Positions 12,875 to 54,058 of a stretch of 54,095 nt of DNA are shown one piece after another. The notes beneath the pieces are model-generated. The model had not been told where the DNA came from, searched no databases, and saw only the letters and a program-made list of their open reading frames with translations. Within the stretch, counting starts at the first letter, position 1; each line of letters begins with the position of its first letter. This DNA comes from Prevotella sp. (GTDB lineage: Bacteria; Bacteroidota; Bacteroidia; Bacteroidales; Bacteroidaceae): the NCBI GenBank assembly GCA_017475005.1, contig JAFVGI010000002.1, positions 1 through 54,095 on the forward strand. The letters are read 5' to 3'. The translations under genes were made by a program, and so were the position numbers.

Positions 12875-15800
12875 GTGAAGAGTAAACTGGTATTATACGC
12901 ATTAACCTTTTTCTTCCTCTTTAATATATTTATATGCGCGCACGCGCAGGATATTACTCCAGGATACTATCGTGTTAAGAATGTTGGTTTAGCAACCTAT
13001 GGGGGAACAATATTAAAAAAGACAGGTGTCAAAGAGGATTGTTATGCGTATGTTGCTAATGGAACCTATCATGTGATAACTACCGCAGGCTATGGACAAA
13101 ATATTCCTTCAATGCTATTATGGGCTGGACTTGAAGATGCTATAGTATCTCCACAGACAGTCATATATATTGCAAAGACAGGAGACAATTATAATCTTGA
13201 GGCACAGGGAACAAGCGTGTCACAAATGACAAGCTACAAAATTAATGTTAATACAGTTTCTGGTACTACAGATACATATACACTTTCAACTACAATAAGT
13301 GGGGTAGGTGCATCGTTGTGGGCCTTTGTAAAAAAAACTGGAATATTTGATAAGGATGGGAATAATGCATACCCATCGAATTACATAGCAACGACAAGTC
13401 CTCAGCCAGAGAATAGTGCAATAGAGGCATACAGACAATGGAAGATTGTGCCTATATCTGCATCTTCAGACAATTATGTTGCAGTAAAAGCTTGTCTAAA
13501 AGTGAAAGATGAGGAGGATGAGACCAGGTATAAGTATTATGCGCCTTATTATGCCTCTTATCCGTTTAGGTTGGTGTCACCAGGGATGAAGGCATATTAT
13601 GTCAGCAGTATTACTGATAAGAAATATACTCTTCAGGAAATTACAAGCGAGGTTATTCCTGGTGCTACACCAGTAATAATAGAGTGTCCTTCCGATAATC
13701 CCGCAGATTGCAAGATAGAGCCTCTCCAAGGCAAATTTGGAAGCATAAGTGACAATAAACTGAAAGGTGTATATTTCTGTAATCTTGAAATGTCACCAGT
13801 TGATTATCCAGATTGTCGTACTGAATTTAAAGCTGCCTCAATGAGGGTTTGGGCTGTTAAGGACGATAAATTAGTTCTGACAAATACAACAGAAAGGGTA
13901 ATCTATAATACAATGTACAGCGGATTCTCTGGGTATTGGCTTCGTCCAAACGAGTCATATCTTGCTGATGTTCCTTCTACTGCTGCAGCAGAATTGGTTG
14001 CTGCTGGTAAGGCAACGACTATCAGCTTTGATACCGATGGTGGAACAGAGATAGGGGATATTAGTGGTGGTGAAGGTGAGCCTGTTACTGCTCCTGCTAG
14101 TCCTACAAAAACTGGTTATACATTTACTGGATGGAATCCTGCATTACCACAAGTATTCCCTGAAGAGGACTTGACTGTAACGGCCCAGTGGCAGATAAAC
14201 AAGCATACCTTGACCTACTATGTAGATAACGAGGTATATAAGACGATAGAGGAAGTAGAGTACGATACCCCAATAATTCCAGAAAAAGAGCCTGGAAAGG
14301 AAGGCTATACATTCTCTGGTTGGAGTACGATACCTTCAACGATGCCAGACAATGATGTCAACGTGACAGGTACATTCTCCATCAACCAATACACCATAAC
14401 ATTTAATTCTAATGGCGGTTCTGCTGTTAATCCGATTAAGCAGGATTATCAGAGTGTAATTGCTAAACCAAACGATCCTATCAGGGAGGGATATACTTTC
14501 CTTGGTTGGAATCCAGCGTTGCCGGATAAGATGCCATTGGGTGGTTTCTCTACTACGGCACAGTGGAAGATAAACCAATATACCATTACCTTTGATACCG
14601 ATGGCGGTTCAGAGGTTAAGCCTATTACTCAGGATTATGGTACAGCCGTTACTGCTCCTGCTAATCCTACAAAAGAAGGTTTTGTCTTTGCTGGTTGGGA
14701 TAAGAAAATTCCAGGCACTATGCCTGCCGAGAATATTACCATTAAGGCGCTTTGGGACAAGTTATATACTCTCACCTTTGATACTGATGGAGGCAGCGAT
14801 GTTGCATCAATTACTGCTGTCAGCGGTACAACAATCGTGAAGCCAGATGATCCTACTAAGACAGGTTACACCTTTAATGGATGGACTCCTTCTGTTCCTT
14901 ACGTAATGCCGGAAGGGGATATGACCGTTAAAGCTACTTGGTTGATAAATAAGCATAAGGTAACGTTCAAGAACTATAATGGTGATACGTGGCAAGAGGA
15001 GATTCTGGATTATGGAGCAGAGATAAAACTTCCTGAGACAAACCCGACCAAGGAGGGTGGTGTATTCAAGAACTGGAGTCCTACACCTGCAAAAACGGTT
15101 CCAGATGAAGATGTCGTATATACTGCTACATTTGATGACTCAGAATATACCATAACTTTCGATACTGATGGTGGATTGCCTGTTCCAAGTCCTATAACAG
15201 AATTCTATAACAGGGACATTACCGACCGTACCAAGGATATTCAAAATCCGCAAAAGGAAGGTTACACATTCCAGAAATGGGAACCTGCAATACCTTCTGT
15301 TATCACAGGTGACTTAACCATCAAGGCTATTTGGGAAGCAAACAAATATACCATCACCTTTGATACTGATGGCGGTTCAGAGGTTAATCCTATCACTCAG
15401 GAATATCTGAGCGCAATTACTAAACCAGACGATCCTATCAAGGAAGGTAACACCTTCTTGGGTTGGGATCCTGCGCTACCGGATAAGATGCCTTTGAACG
15501 GGCTTTCAGTAACGGCCCGGTGGCTGATAAACAAGCACACTCTGACCTACTATGTAGATGGTAAGGAATACAAGAAGTTTGAGAATGTAGAATATAACAC
15601 AGCTATCACTCCTGAGGCGGAGCCTAAGAAGGACGGCTATACATTCTCTGGTTGGAGTACGATACCTTCAACGATGCCAGACAATGATGTCAACGTGGCA
15701 GGTACGTTCTCTATCAACCAATACACCATAACCTTCAATTCTAATGGCGGTTCTGCTGTTAATCCGATTAAGCAGGATTATCAGAGTGTAATTGCTAAAC

Positions 15801-17326
15801 CAGACGATCCTATCAGGGAGGGATATACTTTCCTTGGTTGGGATCCTGCATTGCCGGAGAAGATGCCATTGGGTGGTTTCTCTACTACGGCCCAGTGGCA
15901 GATAAACAAGCATACCTTGACCTACCGTGTAGATAACGAGGTATATAAGACGATAGAGGAAGTAGAGTACGATACCCCAATAATTCCAGAAAAAGAGCCT
16001 GGAAAGGAAGGCTATACATTCTCTGGTTGGAGTACGATACCTTCAACGATGCCAGACAGAGATGTTACTATCTCTGGAACGTTCGCGATTAACAAGCACA
16101 CTGTCACCTTTGATACTGATGGTGGTTCGGAAGTCGCTGACATCACTCAGGATTATGGTACGAAGATAAAGGTGGATGCCCCAACAAAGAAAGATTATGA
16201 CTTCGTTGGTTGGAGTCCTGCACTTCCTGAGACAATGCCTGATGAAGATTTGCAGTTGAAGGCTCTTTGGGGTCCGAAGACTGTAGAGGTGACCTATCCT
16301 CTCAATGAGAATTGGACATGGGTGTCATTCTTTATGATTAATGAAGATATGAGTACTTTTGATAAAGTGTTATCTTCATTAAAGTGGACTTCTGCTGACG
16401 AGATAAAGGGCGCTGATGCATGGGCTATCTATTCTGCTAAGAAGAAAAAGTGGGTTGGAACAATGGATGGTTTTATGGAACTGTCAATGTATAAGATTCA
16501 CTCTTCTTATTCAGGTCAGGAATTGAAACTGAATGGTAGCTACATTAACTCAAAGGCTGACCATAAGGTTGGTGTAGAAAAGGGTTGGAACTATCTCCCT
16601 TATCTGTCTCTTAGCACTTTGCCGATAAGTGAGGCTCTGCAGGATTATGTTGCTTCGGAAGGCGATATTCTTAAGTATCAGGCACAAAGTGCTTTCTATA
16701 GCGGAGGCAAGTGGCAATCTACAGATGGTTTGAATTCTATGGAACCAGGTAAGGGCTACATGCTATATCGAAGTGCAGACGATAAGGTAGAATTCACATA
16801 TCCTATTGCTCTTGTAGAAAATTCGAACAACTCTCGTGTAATGAGGTTTGATAATAATGCTCAACGCTTCTCTTCAAACATGAATGTGTTTGCTACAGTA
16901 GAAGGTGTTATAGCTGTTCCTGGTGATTCTATCGTAGCATTTGCTGTCGATGGTGTTCGTGGTGGTGCAACGATAGATGATGAGGGTAAGGCTTGTCTTA
17001 CTATTATTGGTGACAACAATACTGATATCTATCTTGCCTTGATGCATAACAACACAGTTGTTGCATCTGCTAAGGCTCCTATCAGTTATGCAAGTGATGA
17101 TATAGTCGGCACCTATGCTAACCCTACTGCTATTGAATTTGTAGAAGGCTCGGAAGCATGGGGCGGTGACTATAATATTGTTGCTATATACACTATGGAT
17201 GGTAAGCATCTACCATCAACAGATATCAAAACACTTACAACAGGATTATACATTATAAAGTATGAAACATTATCTGATAATAATAGCAATACTGGCGGTT
17301 GTCGTGTCTTTCGTGTCGTGCGGTAG
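12875..17326 (+). CDS. Large secreted protein with twelve InlB/Listeria-Bacteroides-type repeats
   Basis: A 1483-residue protein starting at GTG 12875. Residues 1-25 form a signal peptide ending AHAQ. Residues 26 to about 380 are an N-terminal domain of unknown type. From about 382 to 1132 there are twelve repeats of 60-70 residues with the cores YTITFDTDGGSEV, GYTFxGW and MPxxDxTVxAxW, the List_Bact_rpt (Flg_new, InlB B-repeat) family. The last 350 residues include a beta-sandwich-like segment and an end resembling a T9SS sorting tail (AIYTMDGKHL...GLYIIKY), though it continues 18 residues beyond the usual stopping point. A cell-surface or adhesin role is inferred. Confidence 0.82.
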   Translation: MKSKLVLYALTFFFLFNIFICAHAQDITPGYYRVKNVGLATYGGTILKKTGVKEDCYAYVANGTYHVITTAGYGQNIPSMLLWAGLEDAIVSPQTVIYIAKTGDNYNLEAQGTSVSQMTSYKINVNTVSGTTDTYTLSTTISGVGASLWAFVKKTGIFDKDGNNAYPSNYIATTSPQPENSAIEAYRQWKIVPISASSDNYVAVKACLKVKDEEDETRYKYYAPYYASYPFRLVSPGMKAYYVSSITDKKYTLQEITSEVIPGATPVIIECPSDNPADCKIEPLQGKFGSISDNKLKGVYFCNLEMSPVDYPDCRTEFKAASMRVWAVKDDKLVLTNTTERVIYNTMYSGFSGYWLRPNESYLADVPSTAAAELVAAGKATTISFDTDGGTEIGDISGGEGEPVTAPASPTKTGYTFTGWNPALPQVFPEEDLTVTAQWQINKHTLTYYVDNEVYKTIEEVEYDTPIIPEKEPGKEGYTFSGWSTIPSTMPDNDVNVTGTFSINQYTITFNSNGGSAVNPIKQDYQSVIAKPNDPIREGYTFLGWNPALPDKMPLGGFSTTAQWKINQYTITFDTDGGSEVKPITQDYGTAVTAPANPTKEGFVFAGWDKKIPGTMPAENITIKALWDKLYTLTFDTDGGSDVASITAVSGTTIVKPDDPTKTGYTFNGWTPSVPYVMPEGDMTVKATWLINKHKVTFKNYNGDTWQEEILDYGAEIKLPETNPTKEGGVFKNWSPTPAKTVPDEDVVYTATFDDSEYTITFDTDGGLPVPSPITEFYNRDITDRTKDIQNPQKEGYTFQKWEPAIPSVITGDLTIKAIWEANKYTITFDTDGGSEVNPITQEYLSAITKPDDPIKEGNTFLGWDPALPDKMPLNGLSVTARWLINKHTLTYYVDGKEYKKFENVEYNTAITPEAEPKKDGYTFSGWSTIPSTMPDNDVNVAGTFSINQYTITFNSNGGSAVNPIKQDYQSVIAKPDDPIREGYTFLGWDPALPEKMPLGGFSTTAQWQINKHTLTYRVDNEVYKTIEEVEYDTPIIPEKEPGKEGYTFSGWSTIPSTMPDRDVTISGTFAINKHTVTFDTDGGSEVADITQDYGTKIKVDAPTKKDYDFVGWSPALPETMPDEDLQLKALWGPKTVEVTYPLNENWTWVSFFMINEDMSTFDKVLSSLKWTSADEIKGADAWAIYSAKKKKWVGTMDGFMELSMYKIHSSYSGQELKLNGSYINSKADHKVGVEKGWNYLPYLSLSTLPISEALQDYVASEGDILKYQAQSAFYSGGKWQSTDGLNSMEPGKGYMLYRSADDKVEFTYPIALVENSNNSRVMRFDNNAQRFSSNMNVFATVEGVIAVPGDSIVAFAVDGVRGGATIDDEGKACLTIIGDNNTDIYLALMHNNTVVASAKAPISYASDDIVGTYANPTAIEFVEGSEAWGGDYNIVAIYTMDGKHLPSTDIKTLTTGLYIIKYETLSDNNSNTGGCRVFRVVR
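14193..16080 (+). repeat. Near-identical DNA blocks within the repeat protein gene
   Basis: Repeats 2-3 (about 14193-14560) recur as repeats 10 and 11 (about 15711-16057) with almost no DNA differences, and a 60-bp core encoding GYTFSGWSTIPSTMPD occurs three times (near 14303, 15639 and 16009). Other repeats in the same gene are far more diverged. This pattern indicates recent unequal crossing-over or gene conversion. Confidence 0.85.
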
Positions 17327-45951: not shown

Positions 45952-47244
45952 CTACAGCAGTTCCGGCAGTTCGAAGAGTCGGATGCCGTTAGAGCCTTTG
46001 ATGAGGATGTGGTATCCGGAAGGAACACCTTCCTCCTGAAGGGCTTTCTTGACAGCAGTAACATCAGGGAATTTACGGAAATGGCATTGTGTATTACCGA
46101 ATTCCTTACCGACAAGCCATATCAGCAGTTCTCCCTCTTTGGCAGAATCCTCTTCACGAAGGAGAAAGTCAACAACCTTCTGATGCTCTGCTGCGCTGAC
46201 ATCTCCCAATTCACGCATATCACCGAGAATAGCCATCTTAGGGCTCACCTGCATAATAGAGAAATTCTGTAATGCCGCCATCATAGAGGTAGGATTGGCA
46301 TTATAGGTATCTACGATGAGTTTGTTGTGGGAGGTGACAGTAAGCTGGGAGCGGTTATTGCTTGGTATATAGCCAGAAAGAGCATCATTGATGTCACTCT
46401 CAGAGACACCAAAATGCAGACCAACTGTGGCTGCTGCCATCATATTCTTGATGTTATAGGCTCCAATGAGATGAGTCATTATATCTCCACCCTGCCATTT
46501 GAAATGCAGATAAGGAGCACAGTCGATAACTTCTCCCTTGACATACGGAATAAGGTCTAAGCCAGAGGAGATATTCATGAGATATTCGTTTTCGCTGTCG
46601 ATGAAGACTTTACCATTATTGGCACGGAGATAGTCGTAGAGTTCTCCCTTTGTCTTTATGACACCCTCAAAGGAACCGAAGCCTTCGAGGTGAGCCTTGC
46701 CGACATTTGTTATCAGACCGCAGTTGGGTTCGACAATATTTACCAATGTCTTTATCTCACCAGGATGATTGGCTCCCATCTCGATGACAGCAAGATTATG
46801 TTCTTTTGTCAGTTGGAGAAGTGTCTTAGGTACTCCGATGTGATTGTTGAAGTTGCCTTGGGTATAGAGCACATTATACTTCTTTCCCAATACTGTTGCC
46901 ACCAGTTCTTTCGTCGTTGTCTTACCATTAGTACCAGTAATACCGATGATAGGAGTATTGAGAGCCTTGCGATGTTCGTTAGCCAGTTGTTGCAGGGCAG
47001 TCAGAACATCAGGAACAACGATGAATCTGTCATCGGTAGCATATTGCAGTTCATCAATGACAGCATAGGAACATCCCTTTTCAAGAGCTGAGGCAGCATA
47101 GGCATTGCCATTGAATGTCTCACCCTTGAGGGCAAAGAAGATGCTTCCGGCAGGGCAGTCGCGGCTGTCGGTAGTGATACGACCCCCCTCCGCCTCCCCC
47201 AAGGAGGAGTGTAGGAATAAGTCATATAGAGATGCTTGATTCAT
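45952..47244 (-). CDS. murF: UDP-N-acetylmuramoyl-tripeptide:D-Ala-D-Ala ligase MurF
   Basis: MurF adds D-Ala-D-Ala to the cell-wall precursor. The 430-residue protein has the ATP-binding GITGTNGKTTT, EMGANHPGEI and NPTSMMAAL. Its N-terminus MNQASLYDLFLHSS is interrupted, before the conserved ITTDSRDCP, by LGEAEGGR, encoded by a GC-rich palindrome (47179-47210). It starts 3 nt before the dsbD gene ends its upstream side, so the two may be cotranscribed. Confidence 0.93.
   Translation of the reverse strand: MNQASLYDLFLHSSLGEAEGGRITTDSRDCPAGSIFFALKGETFNGNAYAASALEKGCSYAVIDELQYATDDRFIVVPDVLTALQQLANEHRKALNTPIIGITGTNGKTTTKELVATVLGKKYNVLYTQGNFNNHIGVPKTLLQLTKEHNLAVIEMGANHPGEIKTLVNIVEPNCGLITNVGKAHLEGFGSFEGVIKTKGELYDYLRANNGKVFIDSENEYLMNISSGLDLIPYVKGEVIDCAPYLHFKWQGGDIMTHLIGAYNIKNMMAAATVGLHFGVSESDINDALSGYIPSNNRSQLTVTSHNKLIVDTYNANPTSMMAALQNFSIMQVSPKMAILGDMRELGDVSAAEHQKVVDFLLREEDSAKEGELLIWLVGKEFGNTQCHFRKFPDVTAVKKALQEEGVPSGYHILIKGSNGIRLFELPELL
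47179..47210 (+). repeat. GC-rich palindromic element inside murF
   Basis: The unit begins CGACCCC and contains CCTCCCCCAAGGAGGAG. It is homologous to the copy at 52362-52394 and forms an inverted pair with 47269-47304. Confidence 0.7.
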
Positions 47245-47268
47245 AAGTAATATGTAGTTGTGATAGTT

Positions 47269-47304
47269 TAGTCTCCCCCTTGGGGAGATTTAGAGGGGGT
47301 TATG
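47269..47304 (-). repeat. GC-rich palindromic element at the proA stop
   Basis: CTCCCCCTTGGGGAG followed by GAGGGGGT. The proA stop codon (47300-47302) lies at its edge. Its orientation is opposite to the murF copy 60 nt away. Confidence 0.7.
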
Positions 47305-51341: not shown

Positions 51342-52418
51342 TTAGAATGCACTCGCTTTGAGTTTCAGGCCTGCTGTCTCATCGAGTCCGAACATAATGT
51401 TCATATTTTGCACAGCTTGTCCCACTGCTCCCTTGAGGAGGTTGTCGATGATTGATGTTACAACGACTTTGCGTCCAAAGACATCAATATGTACGAGAGC
51501 CTTGCTGGTGTTTACAATCTGCTTCAGGTCAAGAGCCTTGTCGCAGTAGTGTGTCATCGCAGCATCGGCATAGAAATCCTTGTAGAGTTTTATCAGCTCC
51601 TCCTTGTCGCACGGCTTGTCGAGAGTCACCACCTCTGTGCAGAATATTCCTCGTGGGAAATCGCCCCTGTAAGGGATGAAGTCCACCGTTATTCCTTCGG
51701 CATCAAAACCCTCATCAAGTGTATCGACCACATGTGGAGCGCCTTCTGGCTTCAGCTCGTTCAGCGTCTGGCAAATCTCGTGAAGGTGCTGATGTGAGAA
51801 CAACTTATAGAATGAGAAGTTATTGTCGCGCCAAGAGAAATGCGTCGTTGCTGCAGGTTTCTGTCCTGCTCCAGTAGAACCAGTTACGGCATTTACTGCG
51901 ATGTCGTTAGTTAGCAGACCTGCCTTCGCTAATGGAAGCAATCCCAACTGTATGCAGGTAGCGAAACATCCTGGATTAGCTAAATGTTGGCATTTCGCTA
52001 TTGCCTCGCGATGTGTCTCAGGGAGACCATATACATAGTCGTGAGTAGGTGCCGCGATGCGGAAGTCCTGTGCCAAATCGATAATCTTCACATTGGCAGG
52101 AATTGTGTGTTCCTTCAGGAAGGCCTCAGACTTTCCGTGACCAAAGCAGAAGAATACTACATCGACATCATCAAAAGGCATCTCTGATGTGAACTCCAAA
52201 TCTGTTTCGCCAATAAGTCCTTCGTGAATGTCACAGACCTTGTTGCCTGCGTTCGACTCGCTGTTGGCAAATACAATTTGTACGTCAGGATGGTTTATCA
52301 GCAGCCTTATAAGCTCGCCACCAGTATAGCCGGCAGCACCAAGAATTCCAACTTTAAGCAACGACCCCTTCCTGGCCTCCCCAAAGGGGAGGGAACTGTT
52401 TTCGTTTTGTTTATTCAT
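51342..52418 (-). CDS. argC: N-acetyl-gamma-glutamyl-phosphate reductase
   Basis: ArgC makes the semialdehyde used by ArgD. The NAD(P)-binding start LLKVGILGAAGYTGGELIRLL and the catalytic Cys in LANPGCFATC are intact. As drawn, the protein (358 residues) begins with 19 extra residues (SSLPFGEARKGS and neighbours) encoded by a palindromic element; the normal family start would be the in-frame TTG at 52359-52361, giving MLKVGIL. Which start is used is open. The gene begins 2 nt after the DUF559 gene ends. Confidence 0.93.
   Translation of the reverse strand: MNKQNENSSLPFGEARKGSLLKVGILGAAGYTGGELIRLLINHPDVQIVFANSESNAGNKVCDIHEGLIGETDLEFTSEMPFDDVDVVFFCFGHGKSEAFLKEHTIPANVKIIDLAQDFRIAAPTHDYVYGLPETHREAIAKCQHLANPGCFATCIQLGLLPLAKAGLLTNDIAVNAVTGSTGAGQKPAATTHFSWRDNNFSFYKLFSHQHLHEICQTLNELKPEGAPHVVDTLDEGFDAEGITVDFIPYRGDFPRGIFCTEVVTLDKPCDKEELIKLYKDFYADAAMTHYCDKALDLKQIVNTSKALVHIDVFGRKVVVTSIIDNLLKGAVGQAVQNMNIMFGLDETAGLKLKASAF
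52362..52394 (+). repeat. Left palindromic arm of the DUF559 cassette
   Basis: Begins CGACCCC and contains CCTCCCCAAAGGGGAGG. It is in inverted orientation to 52820-52856, and its left edge abuts the family-type start codon of argC. Confidence 0.75.
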
Positions 52419-52420
52419 TA

Positions 52421-52801
52421 TTATTCAAATAGTTGTTTCTTTATATAATTCAAAACGTCTTCGATACTTGTATTAATCTCTTCGTTTGTAAATCTAATGA
52501 CGCTAAATCCTATGGCCTCTAGTTTTTCAGTACGATGTTCATCCTTTTGTATTTGTTCATATTCCGAATGATACCCGCCATCTACTTCAATTATAAGTTT
52601 TTTCTCTAAACAGACAAAGTCTACGATATAGTCACCTATGATGTATTGTCTGTTGAATTTAACCCCTAATTGGTTGTTTCGTATATATTGCCAAATAAGA
52701 TTCTCCGCATCAGTTGGGAATTGCTTGTTCTTTTTTGCAAATTCCTTTAACAACTTATACCAGTCAGGGGATGCAAAGTTATATTTGTACTTAAAGCCCA
52801 T
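52421..52801 (-). CDS. DUF559 (Vsr-like) predicted endonuclease
   Basis: A 126-residue protein of the DUF559 family, related to very-short-patch-repair endonucleases with a PD-(D/E)XK-like fold. The core is visible: NRQYIIGDYIVDFVC (Asp61), then LIIEVDGGYH (Glu72, Asp74, His78). No partner methyltransferase is adjacent. It sits alone between argG and argC on their strand, with inverted GC-rich palindromes on both sides, so it looks like an inserted cassette rather than part of arginine synthesis. Function of this family in Bacteroidota is not established. Confidence 0.85.
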   Translation of the reverse strand: MGFKYKYNFASPDWYKLLKEFAKKNKQFPTDAENLIWQYIRNNQLGVKFNRQYIIGDYIVDFVCLEKKLIIEVDGGYHSEYEQIQKDEHRTEKLEAIGFSVIRFTNEEINTSIEDVLNYIKKQLFE

Positions 52802-52819
52802 TCGGATTTCTTTTTTCCT

Positions 52820-52856
52820 TCTTTCTCCCTCCCTTGGGAGGGGCGGGGTGGGGTCG
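52820..52856 (-). repeat. Right palindromic arm of the DUF559 cassette
   Basis: Contains CTCCCTCCCTTGGGAGGG and ends GGGGTCG, the complement of the CGACCCC that begins the left arm. It stops 8 nt from the argG stop codon. Confidence 0.75.
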
Positions 52857-52864
52857 TGTGTCTC

Positions 52865-54058
52865 TTATTTCCTTTCCCCTGGATGTGCCAGATAGTAAGC
52901 ACGTAATGCTGTTGAAGAGACCTTTATGAAGCCTTTGGCGTCTTCGGAAGACCAAGCCTTAGCTGTCTCACCATATTCGCCCAGTTTGTTCTTAACGAGG
53001 TCGTTAGGAGAATCAACACCAACTGTCTGGAAACAGAGAGGACGCAGTTCAAGAGTTACCTCGCCAGTCACGTTGCGCTGAGAAGATGTAAGCATTGCCT
53101 CGATGTCTGGCATAACAGGCTCAAGATACTGGCTCTCGTGGAGGAACATTCCGTACCAGTTGCTTACCTGGTCTTTCCAGTATTGCTGCCATTTAGACAG
53201 AGTATATTTCTCAAGGAATCTGTGTGCTCCGATGATAAGCATTGGGGCAGCAGCCTCAAAACCTACACGACCCTTGATGCCGATGATAGTATCACCAACG
53301 TGGCAATCACGACCTATGCCGTAAGCAGCACCTATTTCTTCAACAGCCTGAATGGCCTTGATCTTATCGTCATATTTCACGCCGTTCACGCTGCACAGCT
53401 CACCCTTCTCGAAGCCCAACTTCAGAGTCTCAGGGCCTTCTTTGGTAGGGTGCTTAAGGTAAGCACTCTCAGGCAGGCCCTGCTTTGAGTCAAGAATCTC
53501 GCCTCCGCAGATTGAGGTGCCCCAGATACCTACATTATATGAATACTTCAGTTTTGTGAAATCAGCATAGAATCCGTGAGCGTTGAGGTAGTCAATCTCC
53601 TCCTGGCGTGAGAGGTTGCCGTCACGAGTGAGAGTGATGATTTCCACACCTGGAGCCATAACGAGGAATGTCATATCGAAACGAATCTGGTCATTTCCTG
53701 CGCCAGTGGAGCCGTGAGCAATAGCGTCTGCTCCAATCTCGTTTGCGTAGCGAGCTATGGCGATTGCCTGAAATATGCGCTCTGAGCTAACAGAAATTGG
53801 ATAGCAATTATTACGCAATACATTGCCATAAACCATATATTTCAGAGACTTCTCGTAATATTCCTGTGTCACATCGAGAGTGACATATTTTTTTGCGCCC
53901 AACTTGTAAGCGTTTTCCTCATTTGTCTTCAGCTGCTCTGCTGAAAAACCACCTGTATTGGCACATGCTGCATAAACTTCATATCCATCCTGTGCCAATT
54001 TCATTACTGTGTAAGAGGTATCAAGACCTCCACTGACAGCTACTACTACTTTTTTCAT
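52865..54058 (-). CDS. argG: Argininosuccinate synthase
   Basis: ArgG joins citrulline and aspartate using ATP. The 397-residue protein starts VVVAVSGGLDTSY, the PP-loop ATP pyrophosphatase motif, and carries HGSTGAGNDQIRFD and the SVSSERIFQA segment. It is the first gene of the visible argG-(DUF559)-argC-argD-proC-proB-proA series on the minus strand. The 37 nt beyond it hold only part of its upstream region. Confidence 0.95.
   Translation of the reverse strand: MKKVVVAVSGGLDTSYTVMKLAQDGYEVYAACANTGGFSAEQLKTNEENAYKLGAKKYVTLDVTQEYYEKSLKYMVYGNVLRNNCYPISVSSERIFQAIAIARYANEIGADAIAHGSTGAGNDQIRFDMTFLVMAPGVEIITLTRDGNLSRQEEIDYLNAHGFYADFTKLKYSYNVGIWGTSICGGEILDSKQGLPESAYLKHPTKEGPETLKLGFEKGELCSVNGVKYDDKIKAIQAVEEIGAAYGIGRDCHVGDTIIGIKGRVGFEAAAPMLIIGAHRFLEKYTLSKWQQYWKDQVSNWYGMFLHESQYLEPVMPDIEAMLTSSQRNVTGEVTLELRPLCFQTVGVDSPNDLVKNKLGEYGETAKAWSSEDAKGFIKVSSTALRAYYLAHPGERK

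Follow-up and report, generated by a model that had tools for sequence, protein, structure and literature searches.

DUF559 nuclease genes between inverted tail-and-hairpin repeats: a candidate class of mobile element in Bacteroidota

The 495-bp segment that separates argG from argC in a Prevotella-like genome is probably a copy of a minimal mobile element that is widespread in Bacteroidota, the nuclease of which would recognise the element's own ends, with copying carried out by host repair or replication. Comparison of the segment with related loci shows, at the level of sequence, a single predicted DUF559 gene between inverted repeats that consist of a tail and a hairpin, the two ends of a copy being alike and the whole a few hundred base pairs long; the same comparison shows ORF-less putative copies with the same ends in a carrier genome, many palindromes in carriers, sites that are empty in relatives, and no target duplication. 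On these grounds the mobility of the element is well supported; that DUF559 drives it, and by which route, we infer.

The copy between argG and argC

The window (the whole stretch of 54,095 nucleotides that was analysed) is contig C9 of genome G000, a Prevotella-like genome, as judged by its named relatives, of 2.36 Mb that is 81% complete. The features of the window that matter here are:

52362..52856, minus strand: whole element, tail-hairpin-DUF559-hairpin-tail, 495 bp, in the argG/argC interval (from the sequence and inverted repeat I1)
52421..52801, minus strand: gene for the DUF559 (Vsr-like PD-(D/E)XK) nuclease, 126 amino acids (from the ORF, Pfam and conserved residues)
52823..52856, minus strand: argG-side terminal repeat, tail CGACCCCACCCCG and hairpin at 52827-52842 (from the sequence)
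52362..52395, plus strand: argC-side terminal repeat, inverted, tail CGACCCCTTCC and hairpin at 52376-52392 (from the sequence)
52416..52418, minus strand: element-internal ATG that opens the argC frame (MNKQNENSSLPFGEARKGSLLKVGILG...; from the ORF at 51342-52418)
51342..52418, minus strand: argC, its N-terminus lengthened by element-encoded residues, conserved argC sequence beginning at about 52358 (from the ORF, a profile match and comparison)
52865..54058, minus strand: argG, the upstream neighbour, with its stop 8 nt from the element (from the ORF and a profile match)
47180..47301, no strand assigned: related pair of inverted palindromes that lacks DUF559, between proA and murF (from the sequence)

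The preliminary description of this DNA had reported outer ends of CGACCCC (from 52362) and GGGGTCG (to 52856) in opposite orientations, which match the sequence exactly, and a 495-bp segment spanning from 8 nt past the argG stop to the codon before the normal argC start, which is likewise seen: the argC side of the element stops one codon (TTG) ahead of the conserved argC sequence. The argC frame starts at an ATG within the element (52418) and runs through the right palindrome into argC. The two hairpins, CCTCCCC-AAA-GGGGAGG (52376-52392) and CCCTCCC-TT-GGGAGGG (52827-52842), lie in opposite orientation in arms (52361-52395 and 52823-52857) that are 71% complementary. The sole gene of the element encodes a 126-aa product that matches Pfam DUF559 (E 1.1e-34, 119 bits against a cut-off of 20.6) and also matches REase_MTES_1575 below the cut-off of that family.

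The end pair of the window copy is not significant by itself, its left/right score being 17 versus 19 at the 99% point of shifted-window controls, and right ends of 45 of the 88 other loci fit the left end of the window copy equally well or better. Nor are the window hairpins unusually stable when folded as DNA (z -0.4 to -1.1; 33 to 81 of 200 shuffles fold as well or better). Unlike ends are found in two other copies as well (L036 and L130), and the window copy lies outside the set of 137 elements from which the anatomy described below was drawn. The observation made in the window is confirmed, but its significance comes from the family, the single copy being no better than chance.

One further DUF559 gene is present in the window's genome, between rseP and gmk; it is flanked by the same inverted palindromes and forms an in-frame fusion with gmk. 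The genes around the palindrome pair at 47180-47301 are named by recognition and are presumably proA and murF; codons 1-12 of murF sit between these two palindromes, one of which is read in frame within murF (FLHSSLGEAEGGRITTDSR). Elsewhere in the window, positions 14008-16183 contain tandem repeats with spacings such as 375 bp.

Terminal repeats and ORF-less copies across the family

A DUF559 match is present in 71 of the 120 genomes of the genus. A tally of inverted repeats around these genes, suggested when the window was first described, came out in favour of the association: in a comparison of each left flank with the reverse-complemented right flank, 73 of the 89 testable genus loci scored above the 99% control. 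These loci derive from 91 of the better-scoring among about 127 matches listed at E 2e-25 or better, from which the high-ranking G049:C231 and G051:C84 are excluded, and L034 and L088 were dropped at the test. The median score of a locus's own pair of flanks was 31, versus 12 in shifted windows (n = 346) and 15 for cross-locus pairs, and in this unselected set the own partner was beaten by at most two of the 88 others in 59 of the 89 loci and by none in 28. Among named public genomes (Prevotella, Segatella, Hoylesella, Flavobacterium, Tamlana and others), 63 of 79 DUF559 loci lay above the 99% control; since they overlap with the genus loci (L025 and L151, for example, have identical ends), the two counts are not all independent. 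A phylum-wide sample contained a DUF559 match in 109 of 198 genomes, and only 9 of the 26 loci tested there passed the terminal inverted repeat (TIR) test; L156, L215, L230 and L232 were dropped from the named-genome and phylum-wide tests. DUF559 relatives on viral contigs, which served as a control, passed in 4 of 77 cases after three of 80 viral loci had been dropped, the closest of these relatives (L314) being among the four.

An interpretation of the gene as phage cargo was rejected, only four phage records matching it, at 31-33% identity, and so few of the viral-contig relatives passing the TIR test. Forty plasmid records match DUF559, all at less than 60% identity.

The anatomy of the ends was drawn from the 137 of 200 loci that have a flank score of at least 22 and a hairpin at both ends. 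From the outside in, these elements mostly begin with a C-rich tail of about 14 nt (GCCTCACCCCC, GACCCACCCCC and similar), followed by a hairpin, for example CCCCTCCC-loop-GGGAGGGG, often with AG or AGT after it. The identity of ends is 0.85 within a pair and 0.63 across pairs, and the own partner ranks among the first five in 116 of the 137, both figures being biased because the set was chosen for alike ends. Protein similarity correlates with TIR similarity (Mantel r 0.30-0.32, p 0.003). In the DFYC protein subfamily the unit is flipped, with the tail inward, in 11 of 17 elements, versus 3 of the 120 remaining elements; flipped DFYC units were noted at L008, L019, L022, L039, L040, L061, L069 and L085.

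Copies that lack the gene occur in G016, a genome of one contig, where the 25-nt end of the genome's own DUF559 element occurs at 13 places with one mismatch allowed, two of these being the ends of the element; the same 25 nt occur once in the other 119 genomes. TIR-TIR copies without DUF559 are of two kinds in this genome, five of the first (about 125 bp; two carry an additional insert) and two of the second, and one further repeat pair has an unrelated middle and also lacks DUF559. The five copies of the first kind are alike from tail to tail and unlike directly outside, three of them having a common additional repeat about 20-50 nt downstream; the pair of the second kind (L399 and L406) may be a local duplication, because its members are about 2 kb apart and similar outside too. 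With these reservations about their flanks, the copies resemble MITEs in that they are ORF-less and bear the TIRs of a DUF559 element of the same genome. Nineteen palindrome regions of G016 that were read include single, inverted-pair and tandem units; at L246 four units stand in tandem with a 66-bp period. Separately, three ORF-less copies of G016 (L397, L401 and L406) are interrupted at one common position of the right hairpin by about 45 nt (AACCAACGGTCGCTGTTCGTTGAG... or similar), a pattern that a second small element with the hairpin as its target would leave.

Insertion sites, reading frames and descent

Elements of this kind lie before many different genes and commonly leave them readable. 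The downstream genes of the 200 loci fall into 88 families by BLAST linkage, singletons included, the commonest being argC (22) and gmk (15). Of 111 same-strand cases in the 137-element set, 89 have an upstream gene that ends between -40 and +60 nt from the left outer end, and in 90 of 115 the downstream frame stays open through the right repeat; the strands of neighbours were called from the longest open frames, wrongly so for L094, L171, L180 and L181, which are same-strand fusions. The element often brings the start codon of the next gene, because, of the 64 separate downstream ORFs that open in the element, 49 have an in-frame ATG ahead of the hairpin, versus 13 of 128 in the other two frames. 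A single open host frame extends to either side of the element at 31 loci, a count that is partly by construction, the reference hosts having been picked for open frames. In-frame copies in RecG lie directly before TATPIPRT in four named-strain records (Flavobacterium, Tamlana, Wocania and Aequorivita), and NCBIfam confirms RecG, LeuRS and gmk as hosts at one locus each; further in-frame hosts, named by recognition, are presumably ValRS, an ABC-F-like protein and MetH. In either way, by supplying a start codon or by sitting in frame, the element leaves its host gene readable.

Comparison of the argG-argC junction in relatives, proposed in the preliminary description as a search for empty sites, did find them. 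Among the 30 best-scoring argC loci, five (the window included) carry a DUF559 element, which replaces the argC ATG; the two genes overlap without a spacer in eight, and are separated by short or plain spacers in six, by another small gene in six, by a palindrome only in two and by an uncharacterised spacer of 463 nt in one, argG adjacent to argC not being found at the remaining two of the 30. The small gene at six of these junctions is, by recognition, one that we take to be PspC-like. G098 (L253 and L096), the closest relative of the window's genome, carries this gene in place of DUF559, and the transition from an empty to a filled site is therefore not directly visible in the lineage of the window's genome; because five other relatives also carry it, the junction can be regarded as a recurrent insertion spot. 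The DUF559 element at the argC site of G051:C84 (L119), one of the five filled junctions, has an internal TGA and is apparently decaying.

Two other sites also offer contrasts between filled and empty. The rseP-gmk junction is filled in G000 and empty in its two closest relatives (gmk 92% and 90% identical), and leuS is filled at L284 and empty at L289, the sequences alongside being 93-95% identical; short palindrome-like or repeat inserts occupy the loop of the L284 element in the LeuRS of L285, L286, L287, L310 and L311. All of these contrasts are between species, the genomes being one per species, and no movement within a species was seen in such a sample. No target-site duplication was detected in 111 elements, where the mean direct-repeat length was 1.23 versus 1.19 in the cross-locus control.

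The DUF559 protein is likely a working nuclease of homing-endonuclease kin, because its active-site residues are kept, its dN/dS is low, and it is kin to 3hrl and 3r3p. Among 200 domains, E33, D61 and E72 are conserved in all 200, D74 in 198 and H78 in 199, and we take these residues to have catalytic roles. The median dN/dS is 0.11 over 24 pairs that are not all independent, with one pair at 0.92. The nearest solved structures by sequence are 3hrl ('Endonuclease-Like Protein', 3e-28) and 3r3p ('Mobile intron protein', 1.1e-7); the latter, which is presumably I-Bth0305I, places the protein among homologs of homing endonucleases. PADLOC gave weak matches only, the best being 'HEase' at 8e-7.

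On a tree of the 200 domains (FastTree, 116 columns, 72 of 194 inner branches open), families of sites are clustered, with 19 changes for ten groups, where the least possible is 9 and the shuffled mean 65; at seven of the ten sites, two or more changes are required by the well-supported branches. Much of the site pattern is descent, because the DUF559 copies cluster by site, and the clustering can be read as elements staying at a site while arrivals or losses recur. The tree agrees better with a homing-like element that jumps occasionally than with full elements that transpose often, with ORF-less units spreading more.

These observations bear on a possible, though unlikely, alternative, that of a site-specific homing endonuclease gene that cuts the empty allele and is copied by recombination, its palindromes aiding expression or repair and its new sites being rare. 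The kinship with a mobile-intron protein (3r3p) and the 'HEase' match in PADLOC would suit such a gene, as would the filling of the same sites across many species in clusters on the tree, the choice of conserved genes as hosts (RecG, LeuRS and gmk as confirmed, ValRS presumably) and the absence of target duplication. However, a range of 88 downstream-gene families in 200 loci is hard to reconcile with it; the dispersed copies of the element's own ends, and the palindrome counts that track DUF559 (see below), need more than allele homing; and no intron or intein part, with its splicing function, was seen, the host frames being continuous at 31 loci and no intein model being among the matches shown for three host proteins.

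Palindrome numbers, known systems and the proposed route

Palindromes of the form CCTCCC-N2-8-GGGAGG occur 4612 times in the 120 genomes, versus 105 occurrences of a reversed-pattern control. A link between palindromes elsewhere and DUF559 genes, which had been put forward from the window alone, holds across these genomes. The median number of palindromes is 39.5 in the 62 genomes with a strong DUF559 match and 2 in the other 58 (nine genomes with weak or partial matches being scored as non-carriers), and palindrome count follows DUF559 copy number with a Spearman coefficient of 0.81. When each carrier was paired with the non-carrier, not already used, that is closest to it in gmk identity, the carrier had more palindromes in 50 of 51 pairs; most of these pairs are not close, and 10 of the 120 genomes are absent from the gmk set. 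Close pairs agree: at a gmk DNA identity of at least 75%, 18 are for and 1 against (n = 19), and at 80% or more, 5 are for and none against. A phylogenetic pair test on well-supported branches yielded 7 pairs, on average 5.0-5.6 for and none against (median p 0.03-0.06). At least 10 palindromes are present in 10 of the 58 genomes without a strong match, which points to loss of the gene or to another source. The presence of DUF559 is patchy: a gmk tree of 110 genomes shows 36 changes.

Y1/RAYT, the sole transposase compared, was rejected as the main mover of the palindromes, its rho being only 0.19. The palindrome median is still 31.5 in the 20 genomes that have DUF559 and lack Y1, and no Y1_Tnp match was found in the window's genome.

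It is improbable that DUF559 is a bystander, a host repair or defence gene beside REP or MITE palindromes that another transposase has moved. A DUF559/Vsr-like protein has been proposed for mismatch repair in Caulobacter (in the available part of PMC12907096), and the palindromes of some genomes without DUF559 would be expected of such a bystander. Against this, the inverted ends match each other and the protein lineage, carriers are richer in palindromes in nearly every pair, Y1 barely correlates with the palindromes and is dispensable, as far as this one transposase goes, the gene is patchily distributed, and copies are found within core genes. Very improbable is a domesticated regulatory insert, in which hairpins in the mRNA tune downstream translation and DUF559, as a coupled partner, is retained: the position at operon junctions and the coupling of translation would suit it, but the host genes are very different, copies lie in frame within genes, sites are empty in relatives, ORF-less copies are dispersed, and the window hairpins lack unusual stability when folded as DNA.

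For a mobile element with its own nuclease, the following route can be proposed. The nuclease would recognise its own tail-hairpin ends and would nick or cut DNA, and host repair or replication would copy the element, or a bare end pair acted upon in trans, into the break, in a manner that may be homing-like or REP-like and would not be DDE transposition. Insertions would survive mainly where a gene stays translated, at co-directional operon junctions and in protein loops, and seated copies would persist by descent, possibly also by homing.

The preliminary description had likened the segment to REP sequences and their TnpA-REP, as a mobile unit of palindromes and nuclease that follows the same logic with an unrelated enzyme, and comparison of the family (counts, dispersed 25-nt ends and empty sites) supports this view. 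As in a REPtron with its RAYT (TnpA-REP), one gene lies between inverted hairpin units with a short tail, the palindromic units that flank DUF559 are also dispersed in the genome as single, paired and tandem units, and target duplication was not found in the DUF559 elements. The enzyme of a REPtron, in contrast, is an HUH tyrosine (Y1) transposase and that of the present element a PD-(D/E)XK nuclease; the REPtron unit has a GTAG tag at the foot of the hairpin, in the available part of PMC3733652, where the DUF559 elements have C-rich tails (GCC/GAC...CCCCC, judged by eye); and the ends of the latter are often within coding frames. TIRtrons with their TIRYT, as far as the same source extends, likewise consist of one gene between longer TIRs, and some of these TIRs make up a repeat family, but again the enzyme is a tyrosine transposase (PMC3733652).

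Vsr-like homing endonucleases (PDB 3r3p) share with the element a homologous nuclease domain, the occupation of conserved genes and the lack of target duplication, and differ in that no intron or intein was seen with the DUF559 element, which has its own TIRs and MITE-like copies and through which the host frame is read. Vsr and VsrA of Caulobacter likewise belong to DUF559 and the PD-(D/E)XK superfamily, but the accessible text of PMC12907096 describes a putative mismatch-repair nuclease. Palindromic elements of Rickettsia are similarly repeated in frame in many unrelated genes, but are about 150 bp long, with no associated enzyme mentioned in the available portion of PMC10969869. BrickBuilt MITEs of Porphyromonas are non-autonomous TIR elements of the same phylum; their TIRs resemble the known IS elements ISPg1 and ISPg9, according to the available part of PMC4596501, whereas the TIRs described here match DUF559 elements. 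Terminal inverted repeats are shared with DDE insertion sequences, from which the element differs in having no DDE transposase and, in 111 elements, no target-site duplication.

A search of open PubMed Central titles and beginnings of abstracts, preprints excluded, found no description of DUF559 elements with terminal repeats. With the reservation that this covers the open PubMed Central literature only, the elements may be regarded as a categorically new class, because the features that define REPtrons are lacking (neither HUH nor GTAG), the enzyme and duplication of DDE elements are absent, and an intein or intron part was not seen. On balance, they appear to be a new phylum-wide class in which a stand-alone Vsr-like PD-(D/E)XK nuclease would mobilise its own tail-hairpin TIRs and bare TIR-TIR derivatives without target duplication, and which would survive in frame by replacing a start codon or as a domain in RecG, LeuRS and, presumably, ValRS.

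If this is true, a nuclease fold familiar from repair, restriction and homing would take its place beside HUH and DDE enzymes as a mobiliser of palindromic repeats, and a source could be named for the GC-rich palindromes that are abundant in many Prevotella-like genomes. It would account for odd extensions at the N-termini of conserved enzymes and for nuclease domains inserted in them; the question also arises of whether some host proteins now use the nuclease domain, and the little-described DUF559 family would gain a testable role.
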